Assembly (NCBI GenBank): GCA_020725335.1
Contig: DYFF01000012.1
Coordinates: forward strand, 1-35,943
Origin: Thermodesulfovibrio sp.
Lineage (GTDB): Bacteria; Nitrospirota; Thermodesulfovibrionia; Thermodesulfovibrionales; Thermodesulfovibrionaceae
Reading direction: 5' to 3'
DNA length: 35,943 bases
Part shown: positions 2,977-13,824 of the stretch, piece after piece
Position numbering within the stretch: the first letter of the stretch is position 1
How the letters are laid out: every line of letters starts with the position of its first letter
Program-made: the position numbers and the translations under genes
Notes under the pieces: generated by a model
The model's database searches: none
What the model was told of the DNA's origin: nothing
Seen by the model: the letters and a program-made list of their open reading frames with translations, nothing else

Positions 2977-4484
2977 AGATAATGGACCATGTAGAGTTAT
3001 ATAAAAGTGAGGACTACAAAGAACTTTTTGAAAATAAAAAACAGTTTGAATGCCCCTATTCTGAGGAAGAGGTAAAAAAAATAGAAGAATACACAAAGAC
3101 AGAGGAATACAAGGAGAAAAATTTTGCCCGTAAGGCTTTGACAATCAATCCAGCAAAGGCATGCCAGCCCCTTGGAGCATTGTTGTGCGCCTTAGGATTT
3201 AAGGATACTTTGCCCTTTGTTCAAGGCTCACAGGGATGTGTTGCCTATTTTAGAAGTCATCTTAGCAGACATTTTAAAGAGCCTGTGCCTGCTGTATCAA
3301 CCTCAATGACTGAGGATGCAGCAGTATTTGGTGGACTAAGCAATATGATTGAGGGACTTGAGAATGCCTATGCCCTTTATAAACCAAAGATGTTTGCTAT
3401 TTCTACAACCTGCATGACAGAGGTAATAGGTGATGACCTGAATGCTTTTATAAAAAAGGCAAAACAGCAGGGTGTGATCCCAAAGGGAATACCAACTCCC
3501 TATGCAAACACTCCGAGTTTTACAGGCTCTCACATTAATGGATACGATGTTATGCTAAGGGGAATCTTAAACTATATGACTACAGGGCTTAAGGCTTCAC
3601 AGACTGAGAGAATAAACATAATACCGGGCTTTGATACCTATTCAGGCAATTATAGAGAGATAAAGAGACTGCTAAGATTAATGGATGTCCCATACATACT
3701 ACTTGCTGATATAAGTGACAGTCTTGATGCACCTAACTATGGAGACTATGAAATGTATTCTGGAGGCACACCACTGGGAGATGTGGTTGACTCAATTAAT
3801 TCAACAGCCACAGTAGCGCTACAGAAATACTCCACCATAAAAACAGGAGAGCTTATAAAGGAAGTCTGGAGGCAACCTTTTGTTAACGTGCCCTATCCAG
3901 TGGGTATTAAAAATACTGACCTTTTCCTTGATGTTATATCTCAGCTTTCAGGAAAACCCATACCAGATGAGATCATTGAGGAAAGAGGAAGAGTAGTGGA
4001 TGCCATGATAGACTCCTATGCCTACATTCACGGTAAGAGATTTGCTCTCATTGGAGATCCTGATCTACTTCTTGGACTTATAAGCTTTATTCTTGAACTT
4101 GGTGGAATTCCGGTTCATATTGTCTGCACCAATGGTGATGAGGACTTTGAAAAGGAAGCCTATGCACTTCTTAAAACTGAGCCTCTCTTTGGTTCAGAGG
4201 GAAAGGTTTACATAAAGAAAGATATGTGGCATCTTAGGTCTTTGCTTTTCACTGAACCTGTTGATTTATTAATTGGGAACTCCTACTGCAAGGCTTTATG
4301 GAAGGATACGGGAATACCTCTTATAAGAGTGGGCTTTCCCATATTTGATAGACATCACATGCATAGATATCCAATTATAGGCTATGCTGGAGCACTGAAT
4401 CTGCTCACACTTATGGTAAATACTGTTCTTGATGAATTGGACAGACAGACAAAGGATTCACCGAGCTTTGATGTTATCAGATAG
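2973..4484 (+). CDS. nifK: Nitrogenase MoFe protein beta chain NifK
   Basis: The beta subunit of dinitrogenase, which contributes the other P-cluster ligands. [25 protein letters not shown] and [12 protein letters not shown] carry the expected cysteines. [12 protein letters not shown] is the typical loop after the second cysteine. I place the start at 2973, where AAGGAGG (2958-2964) stands at good spacing and the ATG overlaps the nifD stop. A longer in-frame reading from 2946 exists but has no such site. The protein is then 503 residues, and translation is probably coupled to nifD. Confidence 0.97.
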
Positions 4485-4493
4485 GAGATTAAT

Positions 4494-7052
4494 ATGGTTA
4501 CCGTAGTTACAGAAAGTCTTGATAAAGATAGGGAAAAAAGACATAAAGTCTGCCGCAATCGTGGTGGAGAATCCTGTGCCTTTGATGGAGCCATGATTGT
4601 GTTACAGCCTGTTGCAGATGCTGTCCATCTTGTACATGGTCCAATTTCATGCTGTGCAAACTCATGGCAGGGTAGAGGCACTATCTCGGAAAAAGGGAAC
4701 TTTCACAAAATGGGCTTTACCACAGACCTTACTGAGATTGATATTGTAGTGGGGACAGAGGATAAGCTTACAAAAGCCATAGAAAACATAGCTCTGGAGA
4801 TAAAGCCTGAAGCTATTTTTGTCTATTCAACCTGTGTTACAGGACTACTTGGTGAGGACATAGAGAGGGTCTGCTTTAATACAGGAAAAAGTCTGGGTAT
4901 AGATGTAATCCCTGTTAATGCTCCAGGTTTTGTAGGACCAAAAAACCTTGGAAACCGTATAGCAGGAGAGGTTTTACTTGAATATGTGATTGGCAAAGAA
5001 GAACCTCCATTTATTACTGAAAGAGATATCAATTTGATAGGAGAGTACAACATTGCTGGTGATCAATTCCTCATTGAACCATTGCTTGAGGAGGCAGGAT
5101 TAAGGATTCTTTCAAGAATTACGGGAAACTCAACTTTCAGAGAAATAAAATGGGCTCACAGGGCAAAGCTTAATGTAATTGTATGTAGCCGTGCACTTGT
5201 AAATATTGGTATTGAGATGGAAAGAAGATATGGTATTCCCTTTGTTGAAGTCTCCTTTTTCGGTAATACAGAAACTGCAAAGGCATTGAGAAGTATTGGG
5301 AAGCTTATTGATAGAGATGGTTCAGTCACTGAAAAAATTGAAGCACTAATTAACAGGGAAGAACAGAGACTTAATGAGGAGCTAAAAAAATATGAGGATA
5401 TAAAAGGTAAAAAAGCAGTGCTTTACACAGGAGGGGTAAAATCTTGGTCAATGATTTCAGCCCTTAAAGACTTAGGAATTGAAGTGGTAGCAGTGGGAAC
5501 AAAAAAGAGCACCTATGAAGATGAGGAAAAAATCAAGGAACTTGTGGGTGATGAATGCATACTCTTTGAAGATACCTCACCGGCAAATATTTTAAAGATT
5601 ATGAATGAGACCGATGCTCACATTCTTATTGCTGGTGGAAGAAATCAGTATCTTGCTATTAAAAAGGGCTTTCCTTTTGTTGATGTAAATCAGGAAAGAC
5701 ACAGAGCCTATGCAGGATACAGGGGACTGATAAACCTTGCAGAAGACATAAGCAGGGCAATAGAATTTTATTCTCCTAAGAAAATTACACAACCTGTTGT
5801 GAAAAGTTCCAAAGGCTCTGTAAGCATTGACCCACTTAAGAACTCTCCCTTTGTTGGAGCAGTAATGGCTTTGCAGGGAGTTGACAGAGTGATGCCTCTG
5901 CTACATACTGCTCAGGGATGTAACTTTCTTGGAAAGGTATTGCTTATTAAACATTTTAGAGAACCCATAGCTATGATGAGCACAAAGCTTTTTACAGAAG
6001 ATGTGGTCATGGGTGGAAAAGATAAACTCATAAAAGCCATTGAAACATTTAGAAGTAAAGGAGCTAAGTTAATTGCAGTTATAACCTCTTCTCTCTCACA
6101 CATCAAGGGAGAGGATATTGATGAATTGGTTAAATCTTTTGATGGTAAGGAGTTTAAAGTTATTCACATTCCACTTCCTGATTATGAGGGCTCCTTAGAG
6201 TGGGGATATTTAAGGGCTATTGAGAGTATCTTAAATCTTATCCCTGAGGAAATTAATGATAAAAAAGAAAAACAGATAAACATAATTGCAGGTGGGCATC
6301 TTACTCCCGCTGATTTTACTGAATTAAGAGAGATCTTTGAACTTTTTGCACTTAATCCAATATTTTTACCAGACCTTTCAGCCCTTGATGGAAGCAGTGA
6401 TTTTTCTCCAGTTACAAAGGGAGGGACAAGCCTGGAAGAGATTAAAAAGATGTCAGCATCCGCTTATACAGTAGTCATAGGTTACAGTCTTAAAGATTTG
6501 GGTCAGAGGCTAAAAGATAGATTTGGAATACCTTTCAGGGTCTTTGGAAGTCTCTCTGGCATAGAGGCAAATGATGAATTCTTTAAGTTTCTGTCTGAGC
6601 TCAGTAATAGAGAGGTTCCAGAAAGATTAATCAGGCAGAGAAGGGTTCTCATTGATGGGATGAGGGATGTCCATTTCTATCTTACTGGTAAAAAAGTGGT
6701 ATTAGCTTTAGAGCCAGACCTCTCAGTTCATATCTCAGGTTTGCTTGAGGAAATGGGAATTTCTGTTGAGCTGGCTATTTTGCCTGAGAAGATAAAATTC
6801 TTTGAGCAGATTAAAGCAAAAGAAATTATATTTGGAGATTTATCAAATCTGGGAGGAGACTGTGACCTAATAATCTCAAACAGTCATGCTCATGAGAGAG
6901 CAAAGATGCTTCATATACCTCTTTATGAAATGGGTTTTCCTGTCTATAAAACCTTTGGATATACCCATAAAGTAACCATAGGTTATAGAGGAAGTCTAAA
7001 TATAATCAATGATATTGCAAATATAAGAAGCAGAAAGGAGGTGCACCAATGA
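4494..7052 (+). CDS. nifEN: FeMo-cofactor scaffold NifE-NifN fusion protein
   Basis: At 852 residues this is two scaffold subunits in one chain. Residues 1 to about 440 are NifE: CRNRGGESCAFDG, GPISCCANSW and TCVTGLLGED carry the cysteines that hold the cluster matched to the P-cluster site. Residues from about 441 are NifN, starting with SIDPLKNSPFVGA, then AQGCNFLGKV and HFREPIAMMSTKLFTEDVVMGG. NifEN receives NifB-cofactor and matures it to FeMo-cofactor before transfer to NifDK. In most diazotrophs nifE and nifN are separate genes. No stop or frameshift lies between the halves. A short SD (AGGAG) follows the nifK stop, and the gene end overlaps nifX by four bases. Confidence 0.95.
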   Translation: MVTVVTESLDKDREKRHKVCRNRGGESCAFDGAMIVLQPVADAVHLVHGPISCCANSWQGRGTISEKGNFHKMGFTTDLTEIDIVVGTEDKLTKAIENIALEIKPEAIFVYSTCVTGLLGEDIERVCFNTGKSLGIDVIPVNAPGFVGPKNLGNRIAGEVLLEYVIGKEEPPFITERDINLIGEYNIAGDQFLIEPLLEEAGLRILSRITGNSTFREIKWAHRAKLNVIVCSRALVNIGIEMERRYGIPFVEVSFFGNTETAKALRSIGKLIDRDGSVTEKIEALINREEQRLNEELKKYEDIKGKKAVLYTGGVKSWSMISALKDLGIEVVAVGTKKSTYEDEEKIKELVGDECILFEDTSPANILKIMNETDAHILIAGGRNQYLAIKKGFPFVDVNQERHRAYAGYRGLINLAEDISRAIEFYSPKKITQPVVKSSKGSVSIDPLKNSPFVGAVMALQGVDRVMPLLHTAQGCNFLGKVLLIKHFREPIAMMSTKLFTEDVVMGGKDKLIKAIETFRSKGAKLIAVITSSLSHIKGEDIDELVKSFDGKEFKVIHIPLPDYEGSLEWGYLRAIESILNLIPEEINDKKEKQINIIAGGHLTPADFTELREIFELFALNPIFLPDLSALDGSSDFSPVTKGGTSLEEIKKMSASAYTVVIGYSLKDLGQRLKDRFGIPFRVFGSLSGIEANDEFFKFLSELSNREVPERLIRQRRVLIDGMRDVHFYLTGKKVVLALEPDLSVHISGLLEEMGISVELAILPEKIKFFEQIKAKEIIFGDLSNLGGDCDLIISNSHAHERAKMLHIPLYEMGFPVYKTFGYTHKVTIGYRGSLNIINDIANIRSRKEVHQ

Positions 7053-7771: not shown

Positions 7772-8187
7772 AAGAGATAATAGCAATAATAAGAAGAGAT
7801 AAAACTCCTGAGACCAAAAAAGCTCTTGAGGAACTCGGCTTTCCATCAATGAGCCTTCAGGGAGTAGAAGGAAGAGGCAAACAAAGAGGTGATACCTGCA
7901 CCGATGAGCTTGATTCAGACTTGCCTAAAAGTTACTGCACTGCTGTGAAACTTAAACCTACTCCTTCAACCTATGCACTGGAGCATACTCTTCCAAAGGT
8001 TGCCCTTTTTGTGCCTAAGAGAATGATAACTATGGTCGTTCCTGATGAAATGGTAGACTCTATTGTAAACAAGATAATGGAAGTAAACAGAACAGGAAGA
8101 CATGGTGACGGAAAAATTTTTGTCTGCCCAATAGAAAAGGCAATAAGACTAAGAACAGGAGAAGAAGATGAACGGGCAATCTCCTGA
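7768..8187 (+). CDS. nifI2: Nitrogenase regulatory PII-like protein NifI2
   Basis: The 139-residue partner of NifI1. It has the PII core (KEIIAIIRRDK, GRGKQRGDTCTDEL, GRHGDGKIFVCPIEKAIRLRTGEE) with the extended T-loop region typical of NifI2 (SDLPKSYCTAVK to LPKVALFVPKRM). It should act with NifI1 on NifDK as a fast, reversible switch sensing 2-oxoglutarate and adenylates. It overlaps nifI1 by four bases at its start and nifB by twenty at its end, so the three genes are likely translationally coupled. Confidence 0.92.
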   Translation: MKEIIAIIRRDKTPETKKALEELGFPSMSLQGVEGRGKQRGDTCTDELDSDLPKSYCTAVKLKPTPSTYALEHTLPKVALFVPKRMITMVVPDEMVDSIVNKIMEVNRTGRHGDGKIFVCPIEKAIRLRTGEEDERAIS

Positions 8188-9049
8188 CCGGAGACTAATT
8201 GAAAGGCATCCCTGTTTTTCTGAAAATGCTCATGGCAAATATGGAAGAATCCATCTTCCAGTAGCACCGGTCTGCAATATAAGTTGCAAATACTGTGACA
8301 GAAAGTATGACTGTGTAAATGAGTCAAGACCAGGGGTATCAAGCAGGGTTCTTACACCTCATGAAGCATTAGAAAGAGTTTTGGTTGCCACTGAAAGGCA
8401 GAGAATCTCAGTAGTGGGTGTGGCAGGTCCTGGTGATCCCCTTGCCAATAAGGCTACCTTTGAGTTTTTAAGGCTTGTGAAAAAGGAGATTCCTGATATA
8501 GCCCTCTGTCTTTCAACAAATGGTCTTTATCTTCCTGATAAAGTAGAATTTTTAGAGGATTTAGGAGTCAGGACAGTCACAATAACAATAAATGCAGTCA
8601 CTCCCTCTGTAGCAGAGGAGATTTATTCATGGATTCTGCTTGATGGAAAGATAATTAGAGGAAAAGAGGCAATGGAGGCTCTTCTTGAAAATCAGTGGAA
8701 TGGTTTAGAGATGCTTACAAAAAGAGGCTTCTATGTGAAGGTTAACTCTGTTTTGATTCCTAAGATAAATGAGGAGGAGATAGAGAAAATAGCAAAGAGG
8801 GCTAAAGGTCTTGGTGCTACGGTGATGAATATAATTCCTCTAATTCCAAATGGAAGGATGAAAAATCTGCAAAAACCATCCTGTGAACTACTGGATAGGG
8901 TTAGAAAAAATTGTGAGCTTCACATAAGTCAGATCAGACACTGTAGACAATGCCGTGCCGATGCCTTTGGAGTACTTGATGAAGACAGAGATATTGAACT
9001 TGAATTGTTAAACAATGCCTTAGCCTTTGATTATTCTGAAACAGTATAA
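8168..9049 (+). CDS. nifB: FeMo-cofactor biosynthesis radical SAM protein NifB
   Basis: A radical S-adenosylmethionine enzyme that fuses two 4Fe-4S clusters and inserts carbide to make NifB-cofactor. HPCFSENAHGKYGRIHLPVAP is the NifB signature, and C36-N-I-S-C40-K-Y-C43 binds the radical SAM cluster. GVAGPGDPLAN, NIIPLIPNGRMK and the late CRQCRADAFG cysteines are also typical. At 293 residues it is the short form without a C-terminal NifX-like domain, as in archaea and many anaerobes. The start overlaps nifI2. It is the last gene of the operon. Confidence 0.95.
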   Translation: MNGQSPDRRLIERHPCFSENAHGKYGRIHLPVAPVCNISCKYCDRKYDCVNESRPGVSSRVLTPHEALERVLVATERQRISVVGVAGPGDPLANKATFEFLRLVKKEIPDIALCLSTNGLYLPDKVEFLEDLGVRTVTITINAVTPSVAEEIYSWILLDGKIIRGKEAMEALLENQWNGLEMLTKRGFYVKVNSVLIPKINEEEIEKIAKRAKGLGATVMNIIPLIPNGRMKNLQKPSCELLDRVRKNCELHISQIRHCRQCRADAFGVLDEDRDIELELLNNALAFDYSETV

Positions 9050-9130: not shown

Positions 9131-9160
9131 TTTACAAAAATGTAAATACAAACAAAAATG
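9131..9160. promoter_or_regulatory. Palindromic ACA-N4-TGT motif, possible operator
   Basis: TTTACAAAAATGTAAA (9131-9146) is a near-perfect palindrome around ACAAAAATGT. The same core stands upstream of nifH (583-592) and, reversed, upstream of the amt operon (11178-11187). It is followed by TACAAACAAAAATG. It is now separated from any nitrogen gene by the cassette interval, so it may be a leftover of the control region that once linked nifB and the amt operon. Function is inferred only from recurrence. The rest of 9124-9404 is AT-rich with no gene seen. Confidence 0.3.
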
Positions 9161-9316
9161 CTTTTTCCTGACTTTGTCAGTTGAAGCCTGATTTTTGAAA
9201 TTTTATCATTGTAACCCATTGAAAAATCTATAAACTGATTTTTAACTTTAAAAAAATATAGTGGTAGAGGAAGAGATTACAAACACTTCTTGACATTACC
9301 TTTTGCAAAATTTTAA

Positions 9317-9346
9317 TTGACAATCTTCTTTTTACCCAAATATAAT
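9317..9346 (+). promoter_or_regulatory. Sigma-70-type promoter ahead of the cassette gene
   Basis: TTGACA (9317-9322) and TATAAT (9341-9346) are both perfect consensus hexamers, 18 bases apart. Transcription would start near 9353, about 50 bases before the ATG at 9405. It lies in AT-rich host-like DNA and points into the higher-GC cassette genes, as a cassette promoter would. No attI or integrase gene is visible beside it. Confidence 0.65.
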
Positions 9347-9404
9347 TCCTTTACTTAGTAGAACAAATTTAAAAGATAATGTGGGCAGCTGAAAGATCAA
9401 TGCA

Positions 9405-10145
9405 ATGAAAGTATTTCGAGTCCTCGTTGTGGGCGAGCACTTCAAAATGGATGTTTCGGGCGTCCAGTGCTACATGGGGTTCTATTTGACACGTTTTGTC
9501 AAAGCAGCGAACCTTGATGAAGCACGCTCTTCAGCGATTGCCGCGGTTCGCATGGACACGAGACTCGATGGCCTGGCATTGAATGACGATGATGATCCTC
9601 CCCTGCTCTTTGTCGATGAGATTGAAGAAGTCTCAGAACTCGATGTCCCCGAAGTCGAGCCCGGATTCGTTTTCTTCAAAGATGAGACAAGGCCTCCGGA
9701 AAGCGAAATCAGCCTGCCGCCCTATCTTGTGATTCGCAAAGGCGTAGCGTTCTGGGTAGAAAATAGACCACTGAGCGAATGGTCGGCAACGCCACAGGCC
9801 TTCAACGAAGGCTGTTTTCGCAATACTTGTATTTATGACACGCGTGGACGTCTGTGGGAAATTGTTCGTTTTGCGTTTACAAAGCCACCAACATTTGTGA
9901 ACACGATCATGCCTTGGAGACAGTTGCCCGTGCAGATCGAGATCCGTCCGTGCGAAAAGCCTACCGTTACGGATATCTTGGCTGAGCTTACCGCAATTCT
10001 CGAGTCTGGGAATTCGTTTTGTGAATACCTGAATCATGACCCGGCAGACATTCTTAAGAGTCTTGAGAACGCTACTACACCAACGGAACTCATTGTACAG
10101 TCGGGTAGATTTGATGATCCGTCGTTGCCTAACAATCGGTTGTAG
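9405..10145 (+). CDS. Hypothetical protein of an integron-type gene cassette
   Basis: A 246-residue soluble protein with no signal peptide or membrane segment. I do not recognise a function. The N-terminal third (KVFRVLVVGEHF, GVQCYMGFYLTRFVKA, LDEARSSAIAAVR) resembles a family of uncharacterised proteins often found in integron cassettes, as far as I can judge. An acidic patch (NDDDD) follows. Base composition is clearly richer in GC than the neighbouring genes, and codon choice differs, which marks recent transfer. The stop codon lies inside the attC site (10127-10184), as is typical for cassettes. No convincing ribosome site precedes the ATG. Confidence 0.75.
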   Translation: MKVFRVLVVGEHFKMDVSGVQCYMGFYLTRFVKAANLDEARSSAIAAVRMDTRLDGLALNDDDDPPLLFVDEIEEVSELDVPEVEPGFVFFKDETRPPESEISLPPYLVIRKGVAFWVENRPLSEWSATPQAFNEGCFRNTCIYDTRGRLWEIVRFAFTKPPTFVNTIMPWRQLPVQIEIRPCEKPTVTDILAELTAILESGNSFCEYLNHDPADILKSLENATTPTELIVQSGRFDDPSLPNNRL

Positions 10146-10184
10146 CGGACGGACTATAGCCCGCTGCTGAGCTTGCCGTTAGGC
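10127..10184 (+). repeat. Integron attC recombination site (59-base element)
   Basis: The element begins with GCCTAAC (10127-10133, the R'' box, pattern RYYYAAC) and ends with its complement GTTAGGC (10178-10184, the R' core, pattern GTTRRRY). Inside, AGCGG (10144-10148) pairs with CCGCT (10161-10165) as the L''/L' boxes. The two halves are offset in length, as in folded attC sites that leave extrahelical bases. At 58 bp it is a short attC. It takes in the stop codon of the upstream gene and sits 12 bases before the next ATG, which is cassette architecture. No integrase gene is in the window. Confidence 0.88.
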
Positions 10185-10195
10185 CAATTACAAAT

Positions 10196-10729
10196 ATGTC
10201 GAACAACAAACGCCAAAAAGCACCACCCCAATACTTGATGAAGATCTTGAGTGTTTTTGGGTTGTTTTTATTATTCGCCTTCCCGTTAGGTATGCTGTTC
10301 GTGGGTTTTTCCTCTCTGGAGGTTAACTGCACCCGAAAACAGACCGGTCAGTTACCCGATTGCGAAATACAGGAAGTCAGACTATTTGGACTATTTAAAC
10401 GTCGGGCCGTTGTTTTAAGTGTCAACAGCATTGGTTACAAAACCCAGGATGTCCATACAAGTTCCCGTGTAACTTTGGGCAGCACTGTTGTTTTGACCGG
10501 AAGCAATGGGTCTTTTCCGATAACACAGGCCGTTTCAAACGTAGGCAGTGCCTGGAAATCGGACGTGATTAATAAAGTTGACTGGTTCTTGAAAACGCCG
10601 AATGAGCGAACACTGGTACCACATATTAACGAGCGAAACATTTTTGGCTGGATAGGGGTCGTCTATTTGGCGTTCATCGCATTGTGCTATGTTTTTTGGT
10701 TTGGCCGCAAGTTTAACGGCCGGGACTAA
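10196..10729 (+). CDS. Hypothetical membrane protein, second cassette gene
   Basis: A 177-residue protein of unknown function. A hydrophobic helix spans about residues 15-37 and another about 150-170. The domain between them, with two cysteines (VNCTRK and PDCEIQ) and many beta-prone segments, probably lies outside the membrane, with both termini in the cytoplasm. The ATG is 12 bases after the attC core and has no Shine-Dalgarno, which is common in cassettes. GC content is raised like the gene before it. The reading frame is intact. Confidence 0.7.
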   Translation: MSNNKRQKAPPQYLMKILSVFGLFLLFAFPLGMLFVGFSSLEVNCTRKQTGQLPDCEIQEVRLFGLFKRRAVVLSVNSIGYKTQDVHTSSRVTLGSTVVLTGSNGSFPITQAVSNVGSAWKSDVINKVDWFLKTPNERTLVPHINERNIFGWIGVVYLAFIALCYVFWFGRKFNGRD

Positions 10730-10790
10730 CCCCGTCGGTGCAGCAGACAGGCGGATAAGACGCCCGCCACTGACCTTATCATTGGCCGGT
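10723..10790 (+). other. Degenerate attC-like tail of the second cassette
   Basis: The stop codon of the preceding gene sits in GACTAAC, which resembles an R'' box. Downstream, GGCGG (10750-10754) pairs with CCGCC (10764-10768). I cannot find a matching GTTRRRY core, so a full attC is not shown. It may be a decayed attC where the cassette was fixed in the chromosome. GC content falls back to the host level shortly after this point. Confidence 0.25.
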
Positions 10791-10927
10791 GAGAATGACC
10801 CACTTGCCACCTGAAAAACCAATGGAGAGAAAAGAGGACAGGACAATGAGTGAAGAAAACGTAAGAATGCCATTTTCTGATCAACATGTTTAGACATGTC
10901 CTTCTTTAAAAGAACACAAAGTTAGGG

Positions 10928-11105
10928 ATTCCTCGCAACCATTGAGGTTGCTAGGAATGACATTTAAGCCCATCATTCTGAGTAGTGTAAGCGAAGAATC
11001 TCCTCATCTGGAGACACTTAGCTTACGCTCAAGTTGACAAAAAGGGAGTAAGGGTAAACAATTGAGTGTCTTTCTGAGCATAGCGAGGAATTTTCACCCA
11101 GAGGC
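10928..11105. repeat. Cluster of short dispersed palindromic repeats
   Basis: Three related units lie here. ATTCCTCGCAAC (10928-10939) pairs with GTTGCTAGGAAT (10947-10958) as a hairpin. CATTCTGAGTAGTGTAAGCG with GAAGAATCT follows near 10973, and CTTTCTGAGCATAGCGAGGA near 11070. They share an ATTCT(C)-GAG-GCGA(A/G)GAAT theme seen in many bacterial genomes as repeat families. A weaker relative may lie near 25095. The stretch 10790-11160 otherwise holds only very short open frames, with no gene I can support. Confidence 0.5.
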
Positions 11106-11166
11106 TTATAAAATCTCCTTCTTTTAAGAGGCAAATTTTTATAACAATTTTTTAAAATTACAAAAT

Positions 11167-11187
11167 TGTATATTTTTACATTTTTGT
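11167..11187. promoter_or_regulatory. Candidate regulator site upstream of the amt operon
   Basis: TGTATATTTTTACA (11167-11180) is a TGT-N8-ACA site, and ACATTTTTGT (11178-11187) overlaps it. Both element types also occur upstream of nifH (551-592). The site is about 55-70 bases before the -24 element of the sigma-54 promoter, a usual distance for an activator. ACAAAATGT follows at 11203. A common nitrogen regulator is an inference from the shared pattern. Confidence 0.35.
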
Positions 11188-11234
11188 CATTTTGTTTATC
11201 TAACAAAATGTTTTATTTTCAATACTTCATATTC

Positions 11235-11250
11235 TGGCATGAAATTCGCA
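11235..11250 (+). promoter_or_regulatory. Sigma-54 (-24/-12) promoter of the amt operon
   Basis: TGGCATGAAATTCGCA has the -24 GG (11236-11237) and -12 GC (11248-11249) ten bases apart, close to TGGCAC-N5-TTGCA. The start of transcription would be near 11261, 30 bases before the ATG at 11291. The element resembles the nifH promoter, including the GGCATG core, so both operons probably answer to the same activator. Confidence 0.75.
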
Positions 11251-11290: not shown

Positions 11291-12127
11291 ATGAGAAGTT
11301 TAAGGTATTTAGTGGTGGTTTTAACTCTTCTTTTTTCCTTTTCCTTAGCTCTGGCTGAGGAAGCAAAAAAAGAAGAGGCAAAGGCAGAGGAGGACAAAGT
11401 TACTGGTAGTGTTGGATTAGGTGTTTACAGCAGGTATATCTTCCGTGGTTATGAGCTCAGTTCTGGTAGTGTTGTTATTCAGCCATCTGTAACAGTCTCT
11501 TACAAAGGTTTTTCGTTGAATTACTGGGGTAACATTGATACCAATGAAAGGGCAACACAGAGTTTTGTTCCAGACAGACCTGGCAGAAAAAGCTTTAATG
11601 AATCTGACCTGACACTCAGTTACACCTACACAATTGACAAACTGTCTCTTACAGGTGGCTACATCTACTATGGAACAAAGTATGCTGATGAGACAGAGGA
11701 GATTTTTTTAAGTGCAAGCTATGATATTATCTCAAAGCCAACACTTACGATTTACCGAGACATTTCCACTTACCCGGGCACTTATGTTAATTTATCCTTC
11801 TCCCACTCCTTTGAGGTTTACAAAGATATTACCCTTGACCTTGCAGCTTCATTTGGCTATTTCAAGGGCGATGATAACTACTGGAGAACCTATGAAAGTA
11901 GTACAGGTGATTATACTGGTAAGAAATACAGCGGTTTACACGATGGCAAACTTCAGGCAGGACTTACCATTCCAATTATGAAACACTTAACAGTTCAACC
12001 TGTGGTTCAGTACTGGTTTCCATTATCAAGTAAGGCAAAAAGAATTGTTGACGGAAATCCCTATAATCCAAATGGACATCTTGATGATACCTGGGTAGCA
12101 GGAATTAATATTACTTTTAGCTTTTAA
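11291..12127 (+). CDS. Outer-membrane beta-barrel protein beside amtB (TorF-like)
   Basis: A 278-residue protein with a signal peptide (cut after about residue 22, ALAEEA), a charged Lys/Glu linker, then alternating strands typical of a beta-barrel. It ends in ITFSF, and a C-terminal phenylalanine is the outer-membrane insertion signal. GSVGLGVYSRYIFRGYELS near residue 38 is typical of the TIGR02001/TorF-like family, which I recall next to amtB-glnK in several bacteria. It may be a pore for small nitrogen compounds, which is inference. GGAGGT sits before the ATG. It is first in the operon, 12 bases before amtB. Confidence 0.75.
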   Translation: MRSLRYLVVVLTLLFSFSLALAEEAKKEEAKAEEDKVTGSVGLGVYSRYIFRGYELSSGSVVIQPSVTVSYKGFSLNYWGNIDTNERATQSFVPDRPGRKSFNESDLTLSYTYTIDKLSLTGGYIYYGTKYADETEEIFLSASYDIISKPTLTIYRDISTYPGTYVNLSFSHSFEVYKDITLDLAASFGYFKGDDNYWRTYESSTGDYTGKKYSGLHDGKLQAGLTIPIMKHLTVQPVVQYWFPLSSKAKRIVDGNPYNPNGHLDDTWVAGINITFSF

Positions 12128-12139
12128 AGGAGGGATAAG

Positions 12140-13823
<1,684 letters not shown>

Positions 13824-13824
<1 letters not shown>

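Follow-up and report, generated by a model that had tools for sequence, protein, structure and literature searches.

Two gene cassettes of probable integron origin between the nif and amt operons of a Thermodesulfovibrio genome with no detected integron integrase

An insert between the nif and amt operons of this Thermodesulfovibrio sp. consists, with high confidence, of two genuine integron gene cassettes left in the chromosome with no integrase. It lies within a window (the whole 35,943-nucleotide stretch that was analysed, which is contig C12 of a 1.8-Mb genome in 21 contigs, 99.9% complete and with contamination rated 0), spans about 9381 to 10790 and perhaps runs on to 10870, and sits where the initial annotation had placed it, with a NifB-like radical SAM gene on its left and a Gcw_chp-type gene, amt and glnB on its right (Table 1). 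The cassette interpretation was proposed in that annotation, and is supported in substance by an attC site, by the foreign composition of the insert, and by its absence in relatives.

Table 1. Coordinates of the cassettes, their junctions and the flanking host genes in the window
Feature	Position	Strand	Basis or detail
Left host flank: radical SAM (NifB-like) gene, last of the nif cluster	8168..9049	+	Pfam Radical_SAM, E 4.8e-23
Consensus sigma-70 promoter, TTGACA-N18-TATAAT	9317..9346	+	12/12 match, 18-nt spacer
Left junction interval	9373..9422	.	best GC change-point 9381, at GTGGGC
ORF1, cassette 1 gene, 246 aa	9405..10145	+	open frame; stop TAG 10143-10145
attC of cassette 1	10127..10184 (58 bp)	+	R'' 10127-10133, R' 10178-10184, L''/L' within 10139-10173
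ORF2, cassette 2 gene, 177 aa	10196..10729	+	open frame; start lies 11 bp beyond R'
attC-like end of cassette 2	10724..10787	+	second covariance model 15.2 bits, E 0.29 over the whole window
Possible start of a truncated third cassette, or another tail of foreign DNA	10785..10870	+	RBS-like stretch, ATG near 10848; GC trace
Right host flank: Gcw_chp-type gene	11291..12127	+	Pfam
amt	12140-13471	+	Pfam; after Gcw_chp-type gene
glnB	13486-13824	+	Pfam; after amt

The site that follows ORF1 had been described as a well-formed 58-bp attC, preceded by a 246-residue gene whose stop lies inside it and leading directly into a second gene, and this description is upheld throughout. Its outer boxes (GCCTAAC and GTTAGGC) have zero mismatches to RYYYAAC/GTTRRRY, and with R''/R' and L''/L' arms standing directly after its gene, cassette 1 has the organization of an integron cassette. 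When the window was scanned by consensus for R''/R' boxes whose inner arms can pair, it was the best site and had no equal. Equally good sites of up to 75 bp arose in none of 100 versions of the window shuffled by dinucleotide, and once in 2000 shuffles of the insert. Because a search of the window against Rfam gave no match, we built our own covariance models from attC sites taken by sequence pattern from integron-bearing IMG/VR contigs (a longer exact attC pattern had no match, and a shorter one yielded the array loci used). The first model, made from 18 aligned attC sites of other integron arrays and none of this genome, encodes the known attC pairing, including the extrahelical position, and scores the site at 49.8 bits (E 4.7e-10), mid-range relative to real array attCs (28.6-75.3 bits among those listed). 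With a second model, based on 96 sites, the score is 46.6 bits (E 2.9e-8), and the covariance-model test proposed for this site in the initial annotation thus came out strongly in its favor. Scores on the reverse strand are much lower (13.7 and 9.9 bits), indicating that the orientation is normal. The sequence at 10127-10184 is a bona fide attC.

That this site is a chance palindrome and that both genes are ordinary horizontally acquired genes is extremely improbable given the E-values from both covariance models, the correct placement of the attC relative to both reading frames, and the presence of an adjacent attC elsewhere in the ORF1 family, even though the bottom-strand folding energy is unremarkable, being no more stable than that of shuffled sequences (z -0.73). 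The unremarkable folding together with imperfect L''/L' pairing does make the recombination activity of this attC uncertain.

Both genes are richer in GC than their surroundings, as had been stated, with 49.4% for ORF1 and 45.1% for ORF2 compared with 35-42% in eleven of the window's other genes, and a GC3 of 0.52 in both compared with 0.23-0.37 in the same eleven; the composition of the insert is foreign. The GTGGGC at the left change-point bears a weak likeness to a cassette start (G followed by TTRRRY, minus one T), and there is neither a clean GTTRRRY box at the left junction nor an exact box at either end of the insert. None of the congeners aligned closely enough to give an exact empty site from which base-exact junctions could be read. 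For these two reasons, integrase-mediated insertion is something that we infer. Immediately to the left of the change-point, within AT-rich host-like DNA of about 23% GC, is the predicted promoter that the initial annotation had seen pointing into the cassettes, and its sequence agrees; it is the only perfect site in the window, and when that spacer was shuffled 5000 times, a perfect promoter arose on the forward strand in 4 cases. Gene cassettes are usually promoterless, and this predicted promoter therefore probably transcribes ORF1 and ORF2 together.

The second cassette had been thought to lack a clear attC, which holds in that there is only one strong attC, but a weak attC-like end to the second gene is present and is new relative to the initial annotation. 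It overlaps the ORF2 stop, which is the expected slot for the attC of cassette 2, and ranks second in the window with the 96-site model and third with the 18-site model (12.2 bits); for a 100-base slot on one strand, its E-value is by proportion about 4e-4 (0.29 x 100/71,886). The R'' box (GACTAAC), L'' and the extrahelical base look right, whereas the right box (ATTGGCC) departs from GTTRRRY. Because the left parts fit and the right box is off consensus, the site is probably a decayed attC of cassette 2, or else would be a hybrid of an attC with the DNA to its right. Foreign DNA on this side may extend to about 10870. Short dispersed repeats of the CATTCTGAG...GAAGAATCT type are present at 10925-11100, with one at about 10927-10964, to the right of the insert; a 39-bp part is also found on contigs C2 and C20 of the same genome.

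None of the libraries searched names a function for ORF1 or ORF2, and ORF1 has no match in Pfam, NCBIfam, PHROG or PADLOC. ORF1 is composed of an N-terminal domain of about 95 aa belonging to a small family and a C-terminal part for which no relatives were found, and only residues 1-95 are confident in its structure model. The best PDB matches, ribosomal eL20/LX-type chains and PurS, were rejected, as their Z values of about 6-7 do not exceed common background and the lowest Foldseek E-value is 0.47. Relatives of the N-terminal domain are located in a Steroidobacteraceae MAG, where the gene is downstream of two attC sites, in G020 without an attC, in G166, and in genomes from two further families of the phylum, where some are fused to membrane parts. 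In G166, a member of the same order, a GTTAACC box, an ORF1-domain gene and an attC positioned 4 bp past its stop lie at 4447 to 4831-4840 of contig C133, and from this arrangement the lone cassette is apparently an independent stray insertion of the ORF1 gene family. It shares with our insert the encoded ORF1 N-terminal domain, an attC after the gene and no integrase seen adjacent, and differs in encoding the approximately 97-aa domain alone, as a single cassette, at another chromosomal place.

ORF2 probably encodes a membrane protein, with a predicted helix near each end, although its predicted structure is of low confidence, and it has one full-length relative (30% identity, in G060). No attC was found within about 1.5 kb on either side of the ORF1-domain loci in G190-G424 or of the ORF2 relatives in G060 and G041, and the two families therefore also exist as ordinary genes. 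No relatives were found when viral contigs were searched with the ORF1 domain and with ORF2, and plasmid DNA and protein searches with the insert, the attC or the ORFs gave no meaningful match.

Rather than sitting at this position in all relatives with host-like composition, the two foreign genes are absent from 40 relatives (15 congeners and 25 others), in which the insert has no DNA match. The nifB-amt interval, which the initial annotation had suggested comparing, is empty in congeners G008 and G011, where nifB and the next gene (on the Gcw_chp side) are directly adjacent. It is differently filled in G002, whose NifB-like protein is the closest (73% identity); there, the nifB-Gcw_chp interval holds a 448-aa methyl-accepting-chemotaxis-like gene (L179, 1238-2584). 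The interval therefore varies within the genus and tolerates insertions. The insert is lineage-specific, and none of the other species of the genus that were examined carries one. The NifB-like gene has orthologues with 57-73% identity in five congeners, and the Gcw_chp gene has a relative in 10. A chimeric assembly or contamination is very improbable, for although the genome is a draft in many contigs, the 36-kb contig carries conserved host genes to the left and to the right of the insert, the repeat in the right spacer recurs on two other contigs, and no contamination is registered; it is the position inside a syntenic contig that disfavors contamination. Of the proposal that these are cassettes fixed in a chromosome, the part that stands is their location inside a host-flanked contig without an integrase; fixation goes beyond the data, the insert being seen in one genome of one species.

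Two features of the host DNA on either side merit description. At 4494-7052, a single frame of 852 aa has two Pfam matches to nitrogenase component-1 domains and is apparently a NifE-NifN fusion. Upstream of Gcw_chp-amt-glnB, the interval 11155-11250 contains a sigma-54-like TGGCAT...GC site (11235) together with one or two palindromes of the TTACAAAATTGTA type, and these elements occur at a similar position in nearly all congeners; this is likely a nitrogen-regulated promoter.

The initial annotation saw no integrase or attI, and genome-wide searches agree. The best match to the integron integrase model (TIGR02249) in this genome scores 75.8 bits compared with a cut-off of 265, and scores below the cut-off are also given by XerC/D-like recombinases in control genomes. 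Matches above the cut-off were found in 6 of 41 genomes searched, all six outside the genus and none in the 15 congeners. No attI was found, and since the genome has no intI there can be none beside it, such that neither element of a complete integron is present. With the first covariance model, the 16 genomes of the genus (this one and 15 congeners) contain a single attC, the one at 10127-10184. Across the order, attC sites (E <= 0.001) are present in 98 of 176 genomes, and cassette donors are therefore plentiful among relatives. Integrons look common in this order, while published surveys list very few; a 2022 survey reported for the phylum, there termed Nitrospira, only two integrase-less clusters, both in one genome (PMC9024848).

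Off-target insertion, intI loss and rearrangement have been put forward as routes to integrase-less attC clusters (PMC8618304). The second of these would apply if an intI and attI had once been resident here and a deletion had removed them, with the last cassettes remaining, and the AT-rich spacer at 9160-9380, which has no relative in congeners, could be read in that way. We consider this improbable, as the matches listed for this genome include no fragment of IntI on contig C12, and none of the 15 congeners has an attC or a true IntI, so that a resident integron would need both gain and loss in this lineage alone.

The account that we place first, at a little under an even chance, is off-target insertion by an integrase acting in trans. 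An IntI from an incoming element since lost would have inserted the cassettes at a secondary or attG site, the target being a non-integron site in the nifB-amt spacer; without an integrase, the cassettes would have stayed and the right-hand site would have decayed. Because attC acts as a folded bottom strand, recombination of cassette 1 would in principle still be possible if IntI were provided in the cell. attG sites are now recognized as genomic targets (PMC12901181), and GNT has been given as the minimal core of secondary sites (PMC10127599).

A tentative second account is that an array fragment from another member of the order arrived via transformation or a mobile element and became integrated through illegitimate or repeat-mediated recombination, with no integrase involved. 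Neither junction is a clean cassette boundary, there is a possible truncated third cassette on the right, a short dispersed repeat is adjacent and donors are common in the order, all of which would fit; however, neither a transposase gene nor other cargo is seen in the insert, and the left GC change-point falls at the expected start of the first cassette. Overall, off-target insertion comes slightly ahead of fragment import in our ranking, and far ahead of a decayed resident integron. A more elaborate version of off-target insertion, in which attG-type capture in an integron-free genus placed the cassettes behind a strong host promoter, ORF1 and ORF2 were useful and so kept, and lone cassettes without an integrase have repeatedly spread the family in the order, seems to us rather unlikely as a whole.

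The insert shows that cassettes leave integrons and can settle beside core nitrogen genes in a genome free of integrase, and points to a large attC pool in the order. Among known systems, it resembles a CALIN (cluster of attC sites lacking integron integrase) in having attC-bearing cassettes in one orientation, in the chromosome, with no intI nearby, but only one attC scores above the normal threshold, compared with the two or more within 4 kb, and no intI, of a CALIN. Two or more attC sites is the default definition, but a case with one attC may also be genuine (PMC9024848). Gene cassettes inserted at secondary or attG sites (aadB in RSF1010 is an example cited in PMC10127599, and attG sites are cited in PMC12901181) are similarly outside any integron and have a weak box at the outer junction; the differences are that two cassettes are present here, and that neither junction has an exact box (host G joined to TTRRRY of the cassette, cassette G joined to host target bases) from which insertion after a G could be read. 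The stray cassette pair is a known kind of mobile DNA, and is notable for the genus and for the integron pool of the order, not for any new mechanism.
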